Assembly: GCA_005798335.1 (NCBI GenBank)
Contig: SYJV01000075.1
Location: forward strand, 1 to 64,000
Length of the DNA: 64,000 nucleotides
Direction of reading: 5' to 3'
From: Planctomycetaceae bacterium
Lineage (GTDB): Bacteria; Planctomycetota; Planctomycetia; Pirellulales; Pirellulaceae
Every line of letters begins with the position of its first letter. Position 1 is the stretch's first letter. Positions 13,255 to 54,284 of the stretch are shown here, piece after piece. The notes under the pieces were generated by a model. The model saw only the letters and a list, made by a program, of their open reading frames with translations, made no database searches and had not been told where the DNA came from. The position numbers were made by a program, and so were the translations under genes.

Positions 13255-13565
13255 GGTTTCTTCCCAATTAGAGAACTAAAAGACGAGTGAAAAAGGGGAA
13301 TCTGAAGCAAATAAACGATCTGCCGCCAGCCTAAACTGCAGCAGAAAAATTGTGCGATTACCGCAGTTTTTCCGGTCGCCTCAGATTTACAAGTTGAATC
13401 GATTGTTTCAAGTATACACAAACTACCCTCTAATCCGAAACTTACCACCCGCATGGGGCATTTACAGCGCCGACCAGGATAATTTTGACAACAGGACTTG
13501 TCAAAATTAGCGTCCGGCAATATCGTTTGCTAGATTGCTGAAATCACAACTACTGCGAGGTGGCG
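13255..13565. other. divergent promoter region between propeller gene and suf operon
   Basis: About 310 bases with no open frame of note. It should hold promoters for both flanking genes. The only strong structure is the perfect palindrome at 13481-13508, annotated separately. A run of A/T-rich sequence lies around 13370-13430. Confidence 0.5.
13481..13508. promoter_or_regulatory. perfect inverted repeat, likely SufR-like operator
   Basis: AATTTTGACAA (13481-13491) and TTGTCAAAATT (13498-13508) form an 11/11 perfect inverted repeat with a 6-base spacer, 57 bases upstream of the sufR-like start codon. Known SufR operators in cyanobacteria and actinobacteria are inverted repeats in the suf promoter. 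The half-site here (CAA...TTG) resembles but does not equal the published CAAC-N6-GTTG. TTGACA within the left arm could also serve as a -35 box, in which case repressor binding would occlude the promoter. The assignment is inferred from symmetry and position. Confidence 0.6.
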
Positions 13566-14267
13566 ATGATGGATACTCTGCGAACCAAGTCAGCGACGGC
13601 GTTGTCAGACGCGATCCGACCGATTGATCAAGCGGTGCTTGACCTATTGCGCAGAGAGCAAGGGTTAACGGTCCACACTTTGATTGAAAGATTGGAAGTT
13701 ACGGCAACCGCGGTACGTCAGCGTTTGGAACGCTTGGTCGAAGTCAAGTTGATCGAACGGCGGAAAGAGGCAATCGGACGGGGACGGCCACAATATCGAT
13801 ATTTCCTAACTAGCCTCGGAATGCGTTACGCGGCAGCTAGTTACGCGGATTTGGCATCGGCATTGTGGCACGAGGTTATGGAATTACCCAATCCTCAGTT
13901 GCGGCAGCGTGTGCTACGTCGAGTTGCCCAGCGCATGGGACAGCAGATGCGAACTCAAATTCCGCTATCGGGAACGCTGACACAGCGCATGCAAGCTGTG
14001 GCAGCCGCTTTTGGCCAGCGACGTGTACCGGCCGGATTGAACGACTTGGATCATTTGCCAATTTTGCAAGTTCATGCGTGTCCCTATCCAGAATTGGCTC
14101 AGCAATCGGAGGACCGGTCGTTGTGCGAGATGGAACAAGAGATGATCAGCGAAGCGATTGGCGAGTCGGTGCAATTGGACTGTTGTCGCTTGGATGGGCA
14201 TGCCATGTGCCAGTTTCGCCCAGTGTTAGCGGCTAACATCGTGGTAGAAGCCAGCGTAGTGACTTAA
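13566..14267 (+). CDS. SufR-like iron-sulfur-sensing transcriptional repressor
   Basis: A 233-residue regulator. The N-terminal winged helix-turn-helix spans about 18-85 (VLDLLRREQGLTVHTLIERLEVTATAVRQRLERL), with an RGRPQYRY wing. The C-terminal half carries cysteines at 172 (HACPYP), 187 (SLCEME), 206/207 and 215, the arrangement expected for Fe-S cluster ligation in SufR-type proteins. ATG 13566 has GAGG 5 bases upstream. A GTG at 13560 is also in frame. SufR with a bound cluster represses suf genes, and loss of the cluster relieves repression. Its place at the head of sufCBD and the palindrome upstream fit autoregulation. It could instead be a generic DeoR/MarR-like regulator, but the cysteines argue against that. 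Confidence 0.82.
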   Translation: MMDTLRTKSATALSDAIRPIDQAVLDLLRREQGLTVHTLIERLEVTATAVRQRLERLVEVKLIERRKEAIGRGRPQYRYFLTSLGMRYAAASYADLASALWHEVMELPNPQLRQRVLRRVAQRMGQQMRTQIPLSGTLTQRMQAVAAAFGQRRVPAGLNDLDHLPILQVHACPYPELAQQSEDRSLCEMEQEMISEAIGESVQLDCCRLDGHAMCQFRPVLAANIVVEASVVT

Positions 14268-14348: not shown

Positions 14349-15179
14349 ATGATACATACTTTAACAATTACCAACCTGCATGTTTCCGTTGAAAGCAAGA
14401 AAATACTGCATGGTGTCAATCTAGAAATGAAGTATGGCCAGACTCATGCGCTAATGGGCCCTAATGGATCGGGCAAGAGCACGCTTGGTTTGGTCATCAT
14501 GGGACATCCGGGTTATGTGGTAACAGAAGGCTCAATTACGCTCGACGGCGACGACCTATTGGAACTCGAGCCCGATCAAAGGGCGCGGCGCGGGATCTTT
14601 ATTGCGTTCCAGCGTCCGATGACGATTCCCGGCGTAAAGATGGCGGACTTTTTGAGGCATGCAACAACCAATGTTCGCCGTCCAGACCGCAAGGAAGGTG
14701 AAGAGTTAATTGCGATGCGGGACTTTCGCAAGGAACTGAAGTCCAAGATGGAGCAGCTAAAAATGGATCCGGAGTTTGCTCGTCGCTATGTCAACGATGG
14801 GTTTTCTGGAGGCGAAATGAAGCGGGCGGAGATCTTGCAGCTAGCCATGTTGCAACCAAAATTCGCGATTCTCGATGAGACGGACAGCGGTTTAGACGCG
14901 GACGCAGTGCGGCTGGCCAGCGAGAGTATTGCGGAATTCGGTCGCGACAAGATGGGTTTGCTCATCATTACGCACCACGATAAATTGCTGGAACACAACC
15001 GGCCTGACTTTACTCACGTCATGTTGGGTGGCCGGATCGTTGAAACCGGAGGCGCTGAACTGGCTAAAGAACTACATGCCAACGGTTACGACCGAATTCG
15101 CAAAGCCCATCCCGACGCAGACGCGGCCAATCGCCGAATGTTACAAGACGATGTGGCAGCGGAGTTGGCCACGGCCTAG
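14349..15179 (+). CDS. sufC: Fe-S cluster assembly ATPase SufC
   Basis: A 276-residue ABC-type ATPase of the SUF scaffold complex, working in the cytoplasm with SufB and SufD. Walker A is at residues 37-45 (GPNGSGKST), the ABC signature FSGGEMKR at 152-159, and Walker B FAILDE at 172-177, followed by TDSGLD, the SufC-specific extended D-loop. The C-terminus is slightly longer than the usual 250 residues. It lies 81 bases after the sufR-like gene and 87 bases before sufB, so one transcript is likely. Confidence 0.96.
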   Translation: MIHTLTITNLHVSVESKKILHGVNLEMKYGQTHALMGPNGSGKSTLGLVIMGHPGYVVTEGSITLDGDDLLELEPDQRARRGIFIAFQRPMTIPGVKMADFLRHATTNVRRPDRKEGEELIAMRDFRKELKSKMEQLKMDPEFARRYVNDGFSGGEMKRAEILQLAMLQPKFAILDETDSGLDADAVRLASESIAEFGRDKMGLLIITHHDKLLEHNRPDFTHVMLGGRIVETGGAELAKELHANGYDRIRKAHPDADAANRRMLQDDVAAELATA

Positions 15180-15266: not shown

Positions 15267-16679
15267 ATGTCGACTGGCATGACGATAGATACTCACGAAG
15301 AAATTGGCGAAATAAATAAATATAACTTTCGCACTGAAAGCACCGCCGTATTCAAGGCTCGCAAAGGGCTCGATAAAGATATTGTCTCGCAGATATCTGA
15401 GATGAAAAATGAACCGCAATGGATGCGCGAGTTTCGCCTGAATTCGTTGGATGTTTTTTATGCTAAACGCATGCCTACTTGGGGCGGAGACATCGCAATT
15501 GATTTTCAAGACATCTTTTATTATCTAAAGCCGACCGACCACCAGGGGCGCACTTGGGACGACGTTCCACAAGAAATTAAGGACACGTTTGACAAACTGG
15601 GCATTCCCCAAGCCGAAAAGAAATACTTGGCTGGAGTCAAAGCCCAGTTTGAGAGTGAAGTCGTGTATGGCTCGTTGAAAGAGGATCTGGCCAAGCAGGG
15701 CGTGATTTTTGTCGACACCGATACCGCGGTACGTGAATATCCGGATTTGGTCCGCCAGTATTTTGGAACCATCATCCCGCCAGCCGACAACAAATTCGCG
15801 GCTCTGAATTCAGCCGTCTGGTCCGGTGGTTCGTTTATTTATGTACCGCCGGGAGTAAAGATCGAGTTTCCCTTGCAAGCTTACTTCCGCATCAATGCGG
15901 AAAACATGGGACAGTTTGAACGCACCTTGATCATCGTCGACGAGGGAGCCTCGGTTCATTATGTAGAAGGCTGTACGGCGCCGATGTATACCAGCGAAAG
16001 TTTGCACTCGGCGGTGGTAGAGGTAATCTGCAAGCGCGGCAGTCGCTGCCGATATACGACGATTCAAAATTGGGCCAACAACATTTATAACTTGGTCACC
16101 AAACGAGCTGTCGCGTACCAAGATGCCACCATGGAATGGGTAGACGGGAATTTGGGCAGCAAACTGACGATGAAGTATCCCGCGGTGTACATGATGGAGC
16201 CAGGTGCCCGTGGAGAGATTTTGTCGATCGCGTTTTCCAGCAAGGGTCAGCACCAGGATGCAGGCGCGAAATTGGTTCATGCGGCACCCCATACGACTGG
16301 CCAGATTATCAGCAAGTCCATCAGCAAGAATGGCGGTCGCAGCAGTTATCGCGGGCTCGTCAGAGTCGAAAAAGGTTCTAAGCACGCGCGCTGCAACGTG
16401 GTTTGCGATGCGTTGATTTTGGACCCCAGAAGCCGCAGCGACACCTATCCTTATATCGAGATTCTCGATCAAGATGTCACCGTTGGCCACGAAGCGAGCG
16501 TATCGCGAATTGGCGAGGAACAGCTTTTTTATCTAATGAGTCGAGGTTTAAGTGAGGCAGAAGCATCGACCATGATCGTCAATGGCTTTATCGAACCGTT
16601 GGTACGAGAGCTGCCGATGGAATACGCGGTCGAAATGAATCGCTTGATCCAATTGCAAATGGAAGGTTCGGTCGGTTGA
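15267..16679 (+). CDS. sufB: Fe-S cluster assembly scaffold SufB
   Basis: A 470-residue SufB, the scaffold on which the nascent cluster is built with SufC and SufD. Recognisable blocks are [25 protein letters not shown] near the N-terminus, the beta-helix core, and the SufB ending [37 protein letters not shown]. Conserved Cys residues include [12 protein letters not shown] and the late [10 protein letters not shown] block. AAAGG precedes ATG 15267. The length equals the family norm. Confidence 0.96.
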
Positions 16680-16705: not shown

Positions 16706-18028
16706 ATGACAGCCACAAGTACTGCAATTGACTCGATAAGTTTTACGGACTCTGGTATTCACTCTTACTTTGCCGGTTTGGATGAACCGGATTGGTTGCT
16801 CGCCTTGCGCAAGTCCGCTTGGCAGCAATTTCAAGAGATGAAATGGCCCACTCGTGAGCAAGAAGAGTGGATGCGTTCGGACTTGCGCGGCTTTAAATTA
16901 GAACGCTACCCTCTGCCCAAAACTCGCGGCGAATTGATTTCCGAGTCGATTCCACATTCGTTATCTCAGGGTGTCAGTTTGAGTGGTAAGTTCGAAACGC
17001 TCGACGGGTCCGTCGTTCACGAGCATCTCGCTGATGGCCTGGCGCGGCAGGGAGTGATCTTTGGAGATTTGAGCCGCATTGCCGGTACTCAGTCGGAATT
17101 AGTGAAGGAGTTTTTATTCTCGACTCTGGAACCCGATCAAGATCGATTTGCCGCATTGCACGCTGCCTGTTGGAGCGGTGGGCAACTGCTGTACGTTCCC
17201 AGAGGAGTTTGCGTCAGTGAGCCGTTCTATGTCAATAGTGCAATGTCCAGTGGTGGCAGCGACTTGGGGCACACGCTTATAGTGCTAGAAGAAGGCGCAC
17301 AAGCGACGCTGCTGTATGAATCCAGCAGTACCGAACCGACCGCGGCGGGGCTGCACGTAGGAGCCCTCGAAATTGTTCTCAAGCCCGGTGCTCATTTGCG
17401 CTACGTCAATTTGCAAGATTGGGGCAAGAGTACTTGGCATTTCGCGCATCAACGAGCGGTCGTCGATCGCGATGCCTCGTTGCAGTGGACGATCGCGGCG
17501 CTGGGCAGCCGGTTTGCTCAGGTCAGTCAGCGAGTTTCCTTGGTTGGCACAGGTGCCACTTGCCAAGTCAACGGCGTCATGTTCACTCAGGGGAAACAAC
17601 AACTGACCTACAATACGTTGCAGCATCACGAAGCCCCTCACTGTCGAAGCGATTTTTTGTATAAAGCGGCACTTCAAGACGAATCGCGTACCGTTTGGCG
17701 GGGCATGATCAAGGTAGATCCTAAAGCGTTCAAGACTGACGGCTATCAGCGCAATGACAATCTCTTGCTCAGCCAGCAATCGCGAGCGGACTCGATCCCC
17801 GGTTTAGAGATTCTTGCCGACGATGTGCGCTGCACCCACGGTAGCACTTCGGGCAAAGTCGATGACGAGCAAATATTTTACGCTCGCAGTCGCGGATTCA
17901 CTCGCAAAGAAGCGATACGCATGATCGTGGCCGGGTTCTTCCAGCAGATCTTTGATCGCATCACCCTCGAATCCGTTCGCGTGGCGCTGGGTGATTCCAT
18001 CGCACGTCAAGTTCGCGAGTATCAATGA
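16706..18028 (+). CDS. sufD: Fe-S cluster assembly protein SufD
   Basis: A 440-residue SufD, the paralogue of SufB in the SufBC2D complex. The family blocks are WLLALRKSAWQQFQEMKWPTREQEEW at the N-terminus, then LHAACWSGGQLLYVPRGV, and the C-terminal CTHGSTSGKVDDEQIFYARSRGFTRKEAIRMIVAGFFQQI with its conserved His. It starts 26 bases after sufB with AGGTGA upstream. The N-terminal domain differs from SufB as expected. Confidence 0.95.
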   Translation: MTATSTAIDSISFTDSGIHSYFAGLDEPDWLLALRKSAWQQFQEMKWPTREQEEWMRSDLRGFKLERYPLPKTRGELISESIPHSLSQGVSLSGKFETLDGSVVHEHLADGLARQGVIFGDLSRIAGTQSELVKEFLFSTLEPDQDRFAALHAACWSGGQLLYVPRGVCVSEPFYVNSAMSSGGSDLGHTLIVLEEGAQATLLYESSSTEPTAAGLHVGALEIVLKPGAHLRYVNLQDWGKSTWHFAHQRAVVDRDASLQWTIAALGSRFAQVSQRVSLVGTGATCQVNGVMFTQGKQQLTYNTLQHHEAPHCRSDFLYKAALQDESRTVWRGMIKVDPKAFKTDGYQRNDNLLLSQQSRADSIPGLEILADDVRCTHGSTSGKVDDEQIFYARSRGFTRKEAIRMIVAGFFQQIFDRITLESVRVALGDSIARQVREYQ

Positions 18029-18092
18029 TCGCTCGCAACGGCTAGAGGCTCGATCGCGTTTCCTTAACTCCCTATTATCAACTTACCAAGCA

Positions 18093-18416
18093 GTGATCGT
18101 TGTGCCTGAATTTCTTCCGGTTGCCCAAGTAGGCGAATTAACCGATCCCGGCAAAATGTGCTTGGAAATCCAGGATCGTTTCGTAGTTCTGGTGCATCTG
18201 GACGGCCAGTATTACTGTATCGATGATGTTTGCACTCACGACGGAGGCACACTGGGTGAAGGTGAAATTAGCAACCATTGCCTGGTTTGCCCCAGACACG
18301 GAGCGAAGTTCGATATCAGTACCGGCAAGGCTGTGACGATGCCAGCCACAGAACCAACCAAGGTCCATCATGTGCGAATCGAGGGCCAGCAAATTTGCGT
18401 TAGCCTCTGCGAGTAG
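18093..18416 (+). CDS. Rieske-type 2Fe-2S ferredoxin
   Basis: A 107-residue soluble Rieske protein. Both ligand boxes are intact: C47-T-H49 (VCTHDGG) and C66-P-R-H69 (VCPRHGAKFD). There is no transmembrane helix or oxygenase domain, so it resembles the ferredoxin subunit of non-haem dioxygenases. In this position, inside a suf cluster, it more likely supplies electrons to Fe-S assembly. The open frame runs from 17952 inside sufD, but GTG 18093 or GTG 18102 gives the natural start. No strong ribosome site distinguishes them. Transcription with sufD is likely. Confidence 0.85.
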   Translation: MIVVPEFLPVAQVGELTDPGKMCLEIQDRFVVLVHLDGQYYCIDDVCTHDGGTLGEGEISNHCLVCPRHGAKFDISTGKAVTMPATEPTKVHHVRIEGQQICVSLCE

Positions 18417-18440: not shown

Positions 18441-18785
18441 ATGTCAGACACAGCTTCAACTAATAGTTTGTGCGAAGATAAAGTTCGTGAGCAACTCAAG
18501 CAAGTAATCGATCCGGAGTTGTTTGTGAATATTGTCGACTTGGGGTTGATCTATGTGGTCGATCTCCAACCAAGTTTGGAGCAACCAGACAAGACAGATA
18601 TCCGAGTCGAAATGACGATGACCAGTCCGATGTGTCCCGCGGGTCCACAATTGGTTGCCAACAGTCGACAAGTGGTCGAGGCCATGGAGGGTGTAGGAAA
18701 AGTAGAGATCAAGGTTGTGATGGAACCGCCCTGGGGACCCGACAGAATGACCGAAGACGCTCGGGATCAGCTCGGTATTTTCTAG
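18441..18785 (+). CDS. SufT-like DUF59 (MIP18) Fe-S assembly factor
   Basis: A 114-residue MIP18/DUF59 protein, a family that helps insert or mature Fe-S clusters (SufT, PaaD and eukaryotic MIP18). The motifs are IDPELFVNIVDLGLIY (about 23-38) and MTSPMCPAG with the conserved Cys65, followed by VMEPPWGPDRM. It ends the suf operon, 24 bases after the Rieske gene. PaaD for phenylacetate degradation is excluded by the absence of paa genes. Confidence 0.9.
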   Translation: MSDTASTNSLCEDKVREQLKQVIDPELFVNIVDLGLIYVVDLQPSLEQPDKTDIRVEMTMTSPMCPAGPQLVANSRQVVEAMEGVGKVEIKVVMEPPWGPDRMTEDARDQLGIF

Positions 18786-19596: not shown

Positions 19597-20018
19597 GAAA
19601 TTACCGGACACCAGTGGATTCTTCGATAGCCACTTTATAGAACTGAAGCAGATCGTTACAATACACTTCGTTAAGTCAACCAGCAGCTCGTTGTTCCCGC
19701 AGTCGCAGGATAGTAAGTGCGCAGGTGTATGCCTCCGTTTCTTTGTTATTGTTGCATTGCATTGTCCTCGCCTGTGGCCGCGGGTTATACGCAATACCGT
19801 TCAACGAACGTGGGATAAGCTTCCAGCTTGTCAAACTGTAGCGGAGTTTCGCCATTGCTTGCACAAGATATTGACAAGCTGGAAGCTTATCCCACGTTCG
19901 TTGAACGGTATTGGGGTTATACGAGCTGGGACAACCAGATTGGCGATTTTTCTGAGACCTGCGGCAGGGTCGCTCACTATAGTTTTCTTTAGATAAACGC
20001 ATTCGCGAGGTGTCTCTG
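19597..20018. other. intergenic with mobile palindromic element
   Basis: This 422-base stretch between the sirtuin gene and prfB holds the element at 19791-19913, annotated separately. The remainder shows no gene. The open frames seen here run through the element on both strands and are not believable. The prfB promoter should lie either within or downstream of the element (19924-20005). Confidence 0.5.
19791..19913. mobile_element. palindromic MITE-like element, copy 1
   Basis: A 123-bp element with near-perfect terminal inverted repeats beginning CAATACCGTTCAACGAACG and enclosing a loop of about 45 bases. It is flanked by the 10-bp direct repeat GGGTTATACG (19781-19790 and 19914-19923), the mark of insertion. 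Compared with copies 2 and 3, the loop reads as its reverse complement, so this copy sits in the opposite orientation. There is no coding capacity, so it must be moved by a transposase elsewhere. It lies 105 bases upstream of prfB. Confidence 0.85.
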
Positions 20019-53910: not shown

Positions 53911-54284
53911 GGCCAAGTGCTCCCGTAAGAGAATAGAATGGACACCGATTCCACAGCACATTCGCGATGCAAAACAAGCATGTGCTACGCGTCGCTAATC
54001 AAGGTGAATTGTATCGTATTCAACTATGCGATCCCATAACATTGCGAGAAAATAGTCCAAGCATTCACCTTCACAGGACGGGATGCTTGCAGCCCGAATG
54101 GAACTTCCGACAACCAGCAACACGTTTAAAAGAAGTGTCTCAAGAGTGCCCTAACTAATGCGAGCGGCAGATGGAATTTAACCATACCAGCCCGAAGCGC
54201 AAGCGAGTGCGTGCTAGGATTCATGCACTCGCTTGCGCTTCGGGCTGGTACTAGTAAATTCCATCTGCCGCTCGCTTAAGTGTT
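53911..54284. other. intergenic region with long palindrome
   Basis: 374 bases between two minus-strand genes. It contains the nested palindrome at 54160-54275 (annotated separately), and the promoter of the 53910 gene should lie in 53920-54150. No other gene or RNA is recognised. Confidence 0.5.
54160..54275. terminator. nested perfect palindrome; AGCCCGAAGCGC family, copy 3
   Basis: A 21-base outer arm (54160-54180, starting GCGAGCGGCAGATGG) pairs perfectly with 54255-54275. A 26-base inner arm (54185-54210, TACCAGCCCGAAGCGCAAGC and on) pairs perfectly with 54225-54250. The 116-base structure begins 10 bases after the TolC-like stop codon (minus strand), so it probably terminates that transcript. 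The inner arm matches the palindromes at 38033 and 44451. The outer arm is unique in this window. Confidence 0.7.

Follow-up and report, generated by a model that had tools for sequence, protein, structure and literature searches.

A conserved palindrome upstream of planctomycete suf operons as the probable operator of a SufR-like regulator

Introduction

Feedback control of an iron-sulfur (Fe-S) cluster assembly operon by an Fe-S regulator is familiar from IscR of the Rrf2 family, and the same logic is proposed here for a planctomycete locus. The window, by which we mean the whole 64,000-nucleotide stretch of contig SYJV01000075.1 that was analysed, carries a suf operon headed by the gene of a putative transcriptional regulator, and a perfect palindrome stands in front of that gene. 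Is this palindrome the operator through which the regulator controls its own operon, as a first-pass annotation of the sequence had suggested? The characterised SufR proteins, as described in the accessible parts of two reports, repress in their holo form, and the cyanobacterial SufR site is given there as CAAC-N6-GTTG (PMC8593673, PMC13421787). A literature search, with most subscription journals outside its coverage, found no report of a planctomycete SufR.

Results

The palindrome and its frequency by chance

Direct reading and a repeat search agree that the palindrome is TAATTTTGACAA-CAGGAC-TTGTCAAAATTA, with two arms of 12 nt (13480-13491 and 13498-13509) that are 100% complementary across a gap of 6 nt. 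The 11/11 inverted repeat initially annotated at 13481-13508 was correctly placed, but is one pair short on each side. The 3' end of the palindrome lies 56 bp before ATG 13566, the likely start of the SufR-like gene; the open reading frame was listed from GTG 13560, and the later start is favored by the position of a GAGG at 13557-13560.

Perfect inverted repeats with arms of at least 11 bases and gaps of 0-20 occur at two places in the window, the palindrome and a hairpin at 54197-54238. Among 12 shuffles of the window eight contained none and four gave 1-4 listings, with 12-base arms in one of the 12. Across the 8.46-Mb genome the relaxed pattern TTTWNRCA-N8-TGYNWAAA is found at a single place, the palindrome itself, and its reversed control at none; a tighter 22-base pattern with up to 3 mismatches finds 47 places against 40 in the reversed control, so degenerate copies of the site are hardly in surplus. 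The conservation of the site upstream of orthologous genes is stronger evidence that the palindrome is real than any of these chance counts.

Other repeats were seen in the window. The hairpin at 54197-54238 is a perfect inverted repeat with 14-base arms (GCGCAAGCGAGTGC...GCACTCGCTTGCGC), either terminator-like or the site of another regulator. A repeat that itself contains an inverted repeat (CAATACCGTTCAACGAACGTGGGATAAGCTTCCAGC...) is dispersed over the window, at about 19796-19909, 21745 and 39054, and is recognizable by translation on another contig of the genome (L414, about 1700-1900); it is perhaps a small mobile or REP-like element.

A SufR-like protein at the head of a suf operon

The regulator gene, which has a single match in its own genome, is followed on the plus strand by sufC, sufB, sufD, a Rieske-type gene and a SufT-like gene (Table 1). 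In 76 of 80 named public planctomycete loci, including those of Pirellula, Rhodopirellula, Rubripirellula and Stieleria, sufC comes after the regulator in the same orientation, and the complete order SufR-C-B-D-Rieske-SufT was detected in 38 of the 80, contig ends truncating some of the others. Linkage to suf genes, one of the marks by which SufR proteins are recognized, is therefore found both in the window and in the named loci.

Table 1. Coordinates of the operator region and the suf operon in the window
Feature	Position	Strand	Basis
Operator palindrome (putative) TAATTTTGACAA-CAGGAC-TTGTCAAAATTA (12/12, N6)	13480..13509	.	Sequence; conserved in relatives
Predicted -35 hexamer TTGTCA, within operator right arm	13498..13503	+	Spacing to -10 across relatives
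Predicted -10 hexamer TATCGT, 17 bp after TTGTCA, 4/6 to TATAAT	13521..13526	+	Sequence; column statistics in relatives
Predicted ribosome binding site GAGG	13557..13560	+	Sequence
SufR-like regulator: winged helix, C-terminal domain with conserved Cys (C174, C189, C209, C217, numbered from GTG 13560)	13566..14267	+	
sufC	14349..15179	+	TIGR01978 324.7 bits, cut-off 212.8
sufB	15267..16679	+	TIGR01980 710.5 bits, cut-off 346.4
sufD	16706..18028	+	TIGR01981 258 bits, cut-off 222
Rieske-type ferredoxin ORF; as listed overlaps sufD, true start uncertain	17952..18416	+	PF00355
SufT-like (FeS_assembly_P / DUF59)	18441..18785	+	PF01883; TIGR03406 98.2 bits, under cut-off 202.6

The top NCBIfam match of the window protein is TIGR02702 (SufR_cyano), at 50.2 bits (50.1 in the search of its own genome), which falls under the family cut-off of 178.8; the same profile matches all 53 proteins of our alignment, the window protein included. 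Unlike IscR, the protein has no Rrf2 family among its listed profile matches. The N-terminal winged helix-turn-helix of SufR proteins is represented by HTH_24 and MarR_2, both matching 53 of 53 aligned proteins at E up to 1. The predicted model (mean pLDDT 89.5) consists of a MarR-like winged helix at residues 17-90 and a C-terminal alpha/beta domain; MarR chains align to residues 17-90 with Z 13.7 and an rmsd of 1.2 over 72 aligned residues. The fold search describes the N-terminal part as MarR/PadR-like, with no SufR structure among the matches listed, and a search of solved structures by sequence gave helix-turn-helix matches only. Residues V47, T48, T50, A51, R53 and R74-G75-R76-P77 of the winged helix are invariant across 147 orthologues. 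The C-terminal cysteines are kept in 147/147 (C174), 147/147 (C189), 143/146 (C209) and 146/146 (C217) orthologues, a count that leaves out three of the 150 family proteins with 150 residues or fewer. Conserved cysteines in this domain are a feature shared with the wider SufR group, for which C203, C216 and C244 of Rv1460 are given as essential in the accessible part of the study concerned (PMC6034842). Since the SufR_cyano cut-off is not reached and the site departs from the published consensus, we name the protein SufR-like.

Weak matches of another kind were also recorded, to the BcsD fold (best E 2.4e-3, query TM-scores 0.34-0.42) and to MetOD1 (PF18546; 24 of the 53 SufR-like proteins at E up to 1, best 1.3e-4); they offer a hint of the origin of the SufR sensor domain.

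Conservation and specificity of the site

A search of the family matched the regulator in 173 of 199 genomes, and all 150 loci listed among the matches were read with their upstream DNA. The motif score upstream of the orthologue exceeds 10 at 144 of them (median 31.8); the shuffles, 450 in number, have their 99th percentile at 3.3 and peak at 12.8. As the motif was built from the family loci on which it is scored, more weight belongs to the counts for the order, the class and the named loci. Scores above 8 are found at 36 of 37 loci of the order, read from 91 matching genomes outside the family, and at 30 of 32 loci of the class, read from about 58 genomes that match clearly and lie outside the order, six of the 32 coming from a separate search. 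Judging by the named relatives, these are the order Pirellulales and the class Planctomycetia. Of the named loci, which overlap the family set, 79 have upstream sequence and 77 of these exceed 12; a site at -457 is present in one of the other two. A simpler measure counts how many of the 18 specified bases are matched in the best ungapped placement; it reaches at least 14 in 121 of the 150 family loci and in 6 of 1500 shuffled stretches; in this count L027, which has no upstream DNA, was scored on the wrong stretch and is counted as a miss. Presence upstream of orthologues was the check that the first-pass annotation had set for its own reading, and the site is present at all three levels of relationship.

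Of the six family misses, L027 has no sequence upstream, as mentioned, L139 has 69 bp and L091 271 bp, and at L075 the site lies just past the scanned stretch (G092:C54:18416). At L096 and L113 the site was not found, although more than 430 bp upstream could be scanned.

The site goes with the suf-linked gene and is rare elsewhere. Order-level genomes encode, at 17 places (L344-L346 and L348-L361), a second and weaker SufR-like protein; none of the 17 reaches a motif score of 8, and no sufB, sufC or sufD was detected nearby. The same is true of 22 distant SufR-like relatives in the phylum, with 0/22 at a score of 8 and no sufB, sufC or sufD detected in the stretch read; the upstream DNA is short for a few of these 39 control genes. 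In 0.85 Mb of named-locus neighborhood three other sites exceed 12. Of the 30 separate places that an exact pattern search found in 119 family genomes, 28 lie at sufR; the reversed control gave 4 matches. The scatter over many unrelated loci that would have counted against the annotation is thus not seen, neither in these genomes nor in the organism's own, with its one place. Four of the 22 distant genes (L311, L314, L321 and L322) show by eye a short palindrome like CAAGC..GCTTG near the gene start, possibly an operator of their own.

Anatomy of the site and overlap with the promoter

Column statistics of the family sites give the shared form tTTTTnnCA-N8-TGnnAAAAaT, with a core of TTTTnnCA-N8-TGnnAAAA. 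The right arm is much more conserved than the left (TTG 98 to 100%, then T 94%, C 78% and AAAA 88 to 98%); positions 0, 1 and 7 of the left arm, TTTTnnCA, are 100% T, 97% T and 99% A. The perfect symmetry first described holds for the window (12/12), but it is not a general trait, all nine arm pairs being complementary in only 4 of 144 family sites. Three of these four carry CAAC-N4-GTTG and that of the window CAAC-N4-CTTG, all inside TTTT/AAAA flanks. Across the family sites the arms show no co-variation beyond column composition; the inner dinucleotide has a mild excess at order and class level only (0.44 against 0.29, 0.78 against 0.61 and 0.57 against 0.39).

The sequence TAnnnT follows the right arm by 16-17 bp in 98/144 family, 35/36 order and 17/30 class sites and is absent at this distance in 46 of the 144 family sites; counted from the left arm, the same spacing is found in 9/144, 0/36 and 0/30. 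Between 15 bases before the site and 31 after it, this -10 provides the only other conserved columns. The right arm therefore fits a -35 element, and the asymmetry of the arms seems to have its cause downstream, in this spacing to the -10. The overlap of palindrome and -35 that had been suggested stands in this form, with the right-arm TTGTCA as the predicted hexamer. Its original assignment to a TTGACA in the left arm is rejected, because the -10 spacing fits the right arm and TTGACA is found in the left arm at only 17 of 144 family sites. The window promoter predicted by consensus (Table 1) would place the start point near 13533.

Two families of the class provide a natural comparison that supports the dual role of the right arm as operator and -35. 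In f22 the -10 is present at 16 of 17 sites and TTGTC at 14; in f21 the -10 is found in 0/12, TTGTC in one and TTGCG in seven, and both arms are kept in 12 of 14 loci.

A second target in some relatives

One of the two pattern places away from sufR belongs to a genome of the same genus and precedes an A-type iron-sulfur carrier gene by 143 bp (TIGR00049, 115.2 bits, cut-off 58.8). We then consider the 55 best-matching A-type carrier loci from searches of 60 and 146 genomes, 12 of which (11 genomes) have an upstream site scoring above 12, nine of the 12 at 47 to 74 bp before the start; two of the 12 score low (12.7 and 15.8), and one genome contributes two. A score above 12 is seen in 2 of 1100 shuffles, and the highest among the coding controls is 3.1. 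Both arms are kept in the carrier sites. The organism's own A-type carrier gene (L429) has no site before it, as is the case at 43 of the 55 loci. That several lineages have the same site in front of an unlinked Fe-S assembly gene speaks independently for a regulator of this process.

A broad regulon in the organism's own genome is not supported, the four next best places (two mismatches) lying inside ORFs with no Fe-S link by eye. Among relatives, G125 of the same genus has a close copy of the site away from sufR (L412:4040-4066), in an open frame that matches no family, and G117 has a site inside an ORF; these two are unexplained or due to chance.

Discussion

Conservation, specificity and linkage together support the reading of the palindrome as an autoregulatory suf operator. 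Very probably it is the operator of the suf promoter, bound by the SufR-like product of the first gene, which would repress its own operon and let go when clusters run short. In the mechanism that we propose, a SufR-like dimer, probably with an Fe-S cluster on its C-terminal cysteines, would bind the half-sites TTTTnnCA and TGnnAAAA. Because the downstream half-site contains TTGTCA, the bound holo-protein would cover the -35 and shut out RNA polymerase, lowering transcription of the whole operon, from sufR itself through sufC, sufB, sufD and the Rieske gene to sufT. Under a shortage of clusters, or damage to them, the apo-protein would release the site and the operon would be derepressed.

This proposal can be set beside the known SufR systems, as far as the accessible parts of the published accounts describe them. 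Cyanobacterial SufR (Synechocystis sll0088) has in common with the protein described here the winged helix, the C-terminal cysteines, the suf linkage and an inverted-repeat site in the suf/sufR promoter region. The cyanobacterial gene is divergent from sufBCDS, whereas here sufR is the first gene of a co-directional operon with the order C-B-D; the cysteine spacing also differs, and the TIGR02702 score here is far under the cut-off. The first-pass annotation had remarked that the half-site resembles reported SufR sites and yet departs from them, and the departure lies in the spacing, N4 within TTTT/AAAA flanks here (CAAC-N4-GTTG or -CTTG) against N6 in the published CAAC-N6-GTTG. A plasmid search for a SufR relative with an operator to compare gave no match, and the cyanobacterial and actinobacterial sites are therefore represented in this comparison by that published consensus. 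The Actinobacteria (Rv1460 of M. tuberculosis, SufR of S. avermitilis and of C. glutamicum) have sufR first in the suf operon and autorepression at its own promoter, as proposed here. All three essential cysteines of Rv1460 are matched by a cysteine here: C189 and C217 have 27 residues between them, the same as C216 and C244 of Rv1460, and the first cysteine gap is two residues longer here (X14 against X12). In S. avermitilis the site is also CAAC-N6-GTTG; it overlaps the -10 and extends as far as the start point (according to the accessible part of PMC11995493), whereas the site here lies over the -35.

The palindrome might instead belong to another, more global regulator, for instance of the Rrf2/IscR type or one responding to iron or redox state, with the SufR-like protein binding elsewhere. 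Sites before A-type carrier genes away from sufR are what such a regulator would leave, but they are equally well explained by the Fe-S regulon of a local one; the site also travels with the sufR-like gene, at one place in the own genome and with just three unlinked sites in the named-locus neighborhoods, and in the 15 bases before it and the 31 after it only the -10 columns are conserved as well. We therefore regard a global regulator as unlikely. Activation by the SufR-like protein from this site, or binding of its apo form there, would change only the sign and the signal of the preferred model; the sign of regulation is not readable from sequence, but the -35 overlap fits repression, and repression by the holo form is what the accessible parts of the reports give for characterised SufR proteins (PMC8593673, PMC13421787), which makes this variant clearly improbable. 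Least credible, and in our judgement highly improbable, is a block that is mainly a strong promoter (TTGTCA, A-tract and -10) with an incidental palindrome, for although the better conserved right arm fits a -35 and the arms do not co-vary in the family, the left arm TTTTnnCA is strongly conserved with no place in this promoter, f21 keeps both arms with no -10 following, and so do the carrier sites retain both.

Autoregulation by the SufR-like protein through the palindrome, our preferred reading, has its own points against it: the 50-bit SufR_cyano score, the different half-site spacing, the lack of arm co-variation in the family, the own A-type carrier gene without a site and the 43 of 55 carrier loci in the same state, a -10 that matches at only 4/6 positions, the 46 of 144 family sites with no TAnnnT at 16-17 bp, and the two family loci (L096 and L113) without a site. 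The protein most likely works like SufR, as a variant of its own. More broadly, we consider it likely that Planctomycetia, as judged from the names of relatives, have a SufR-like regulon of their own, with an operator whose half-site spacing is unlike that of cyanobacteria and actinobacteria and whose downstream half-site doubles as the -35; f21, with no visible promoter role, would have been freed from the TTGTC constraint, and the A-type carrier would have been gained as a target in scattered lineages. SufR-type feedback control of Fe-S cluster assembly would thereby extend to a large bacterial group. The exact consensus is testable and can be used for regulon annotation, and the site is a clear example of one operator half matching a promoter element, for which a sister family serves as natural comparison.
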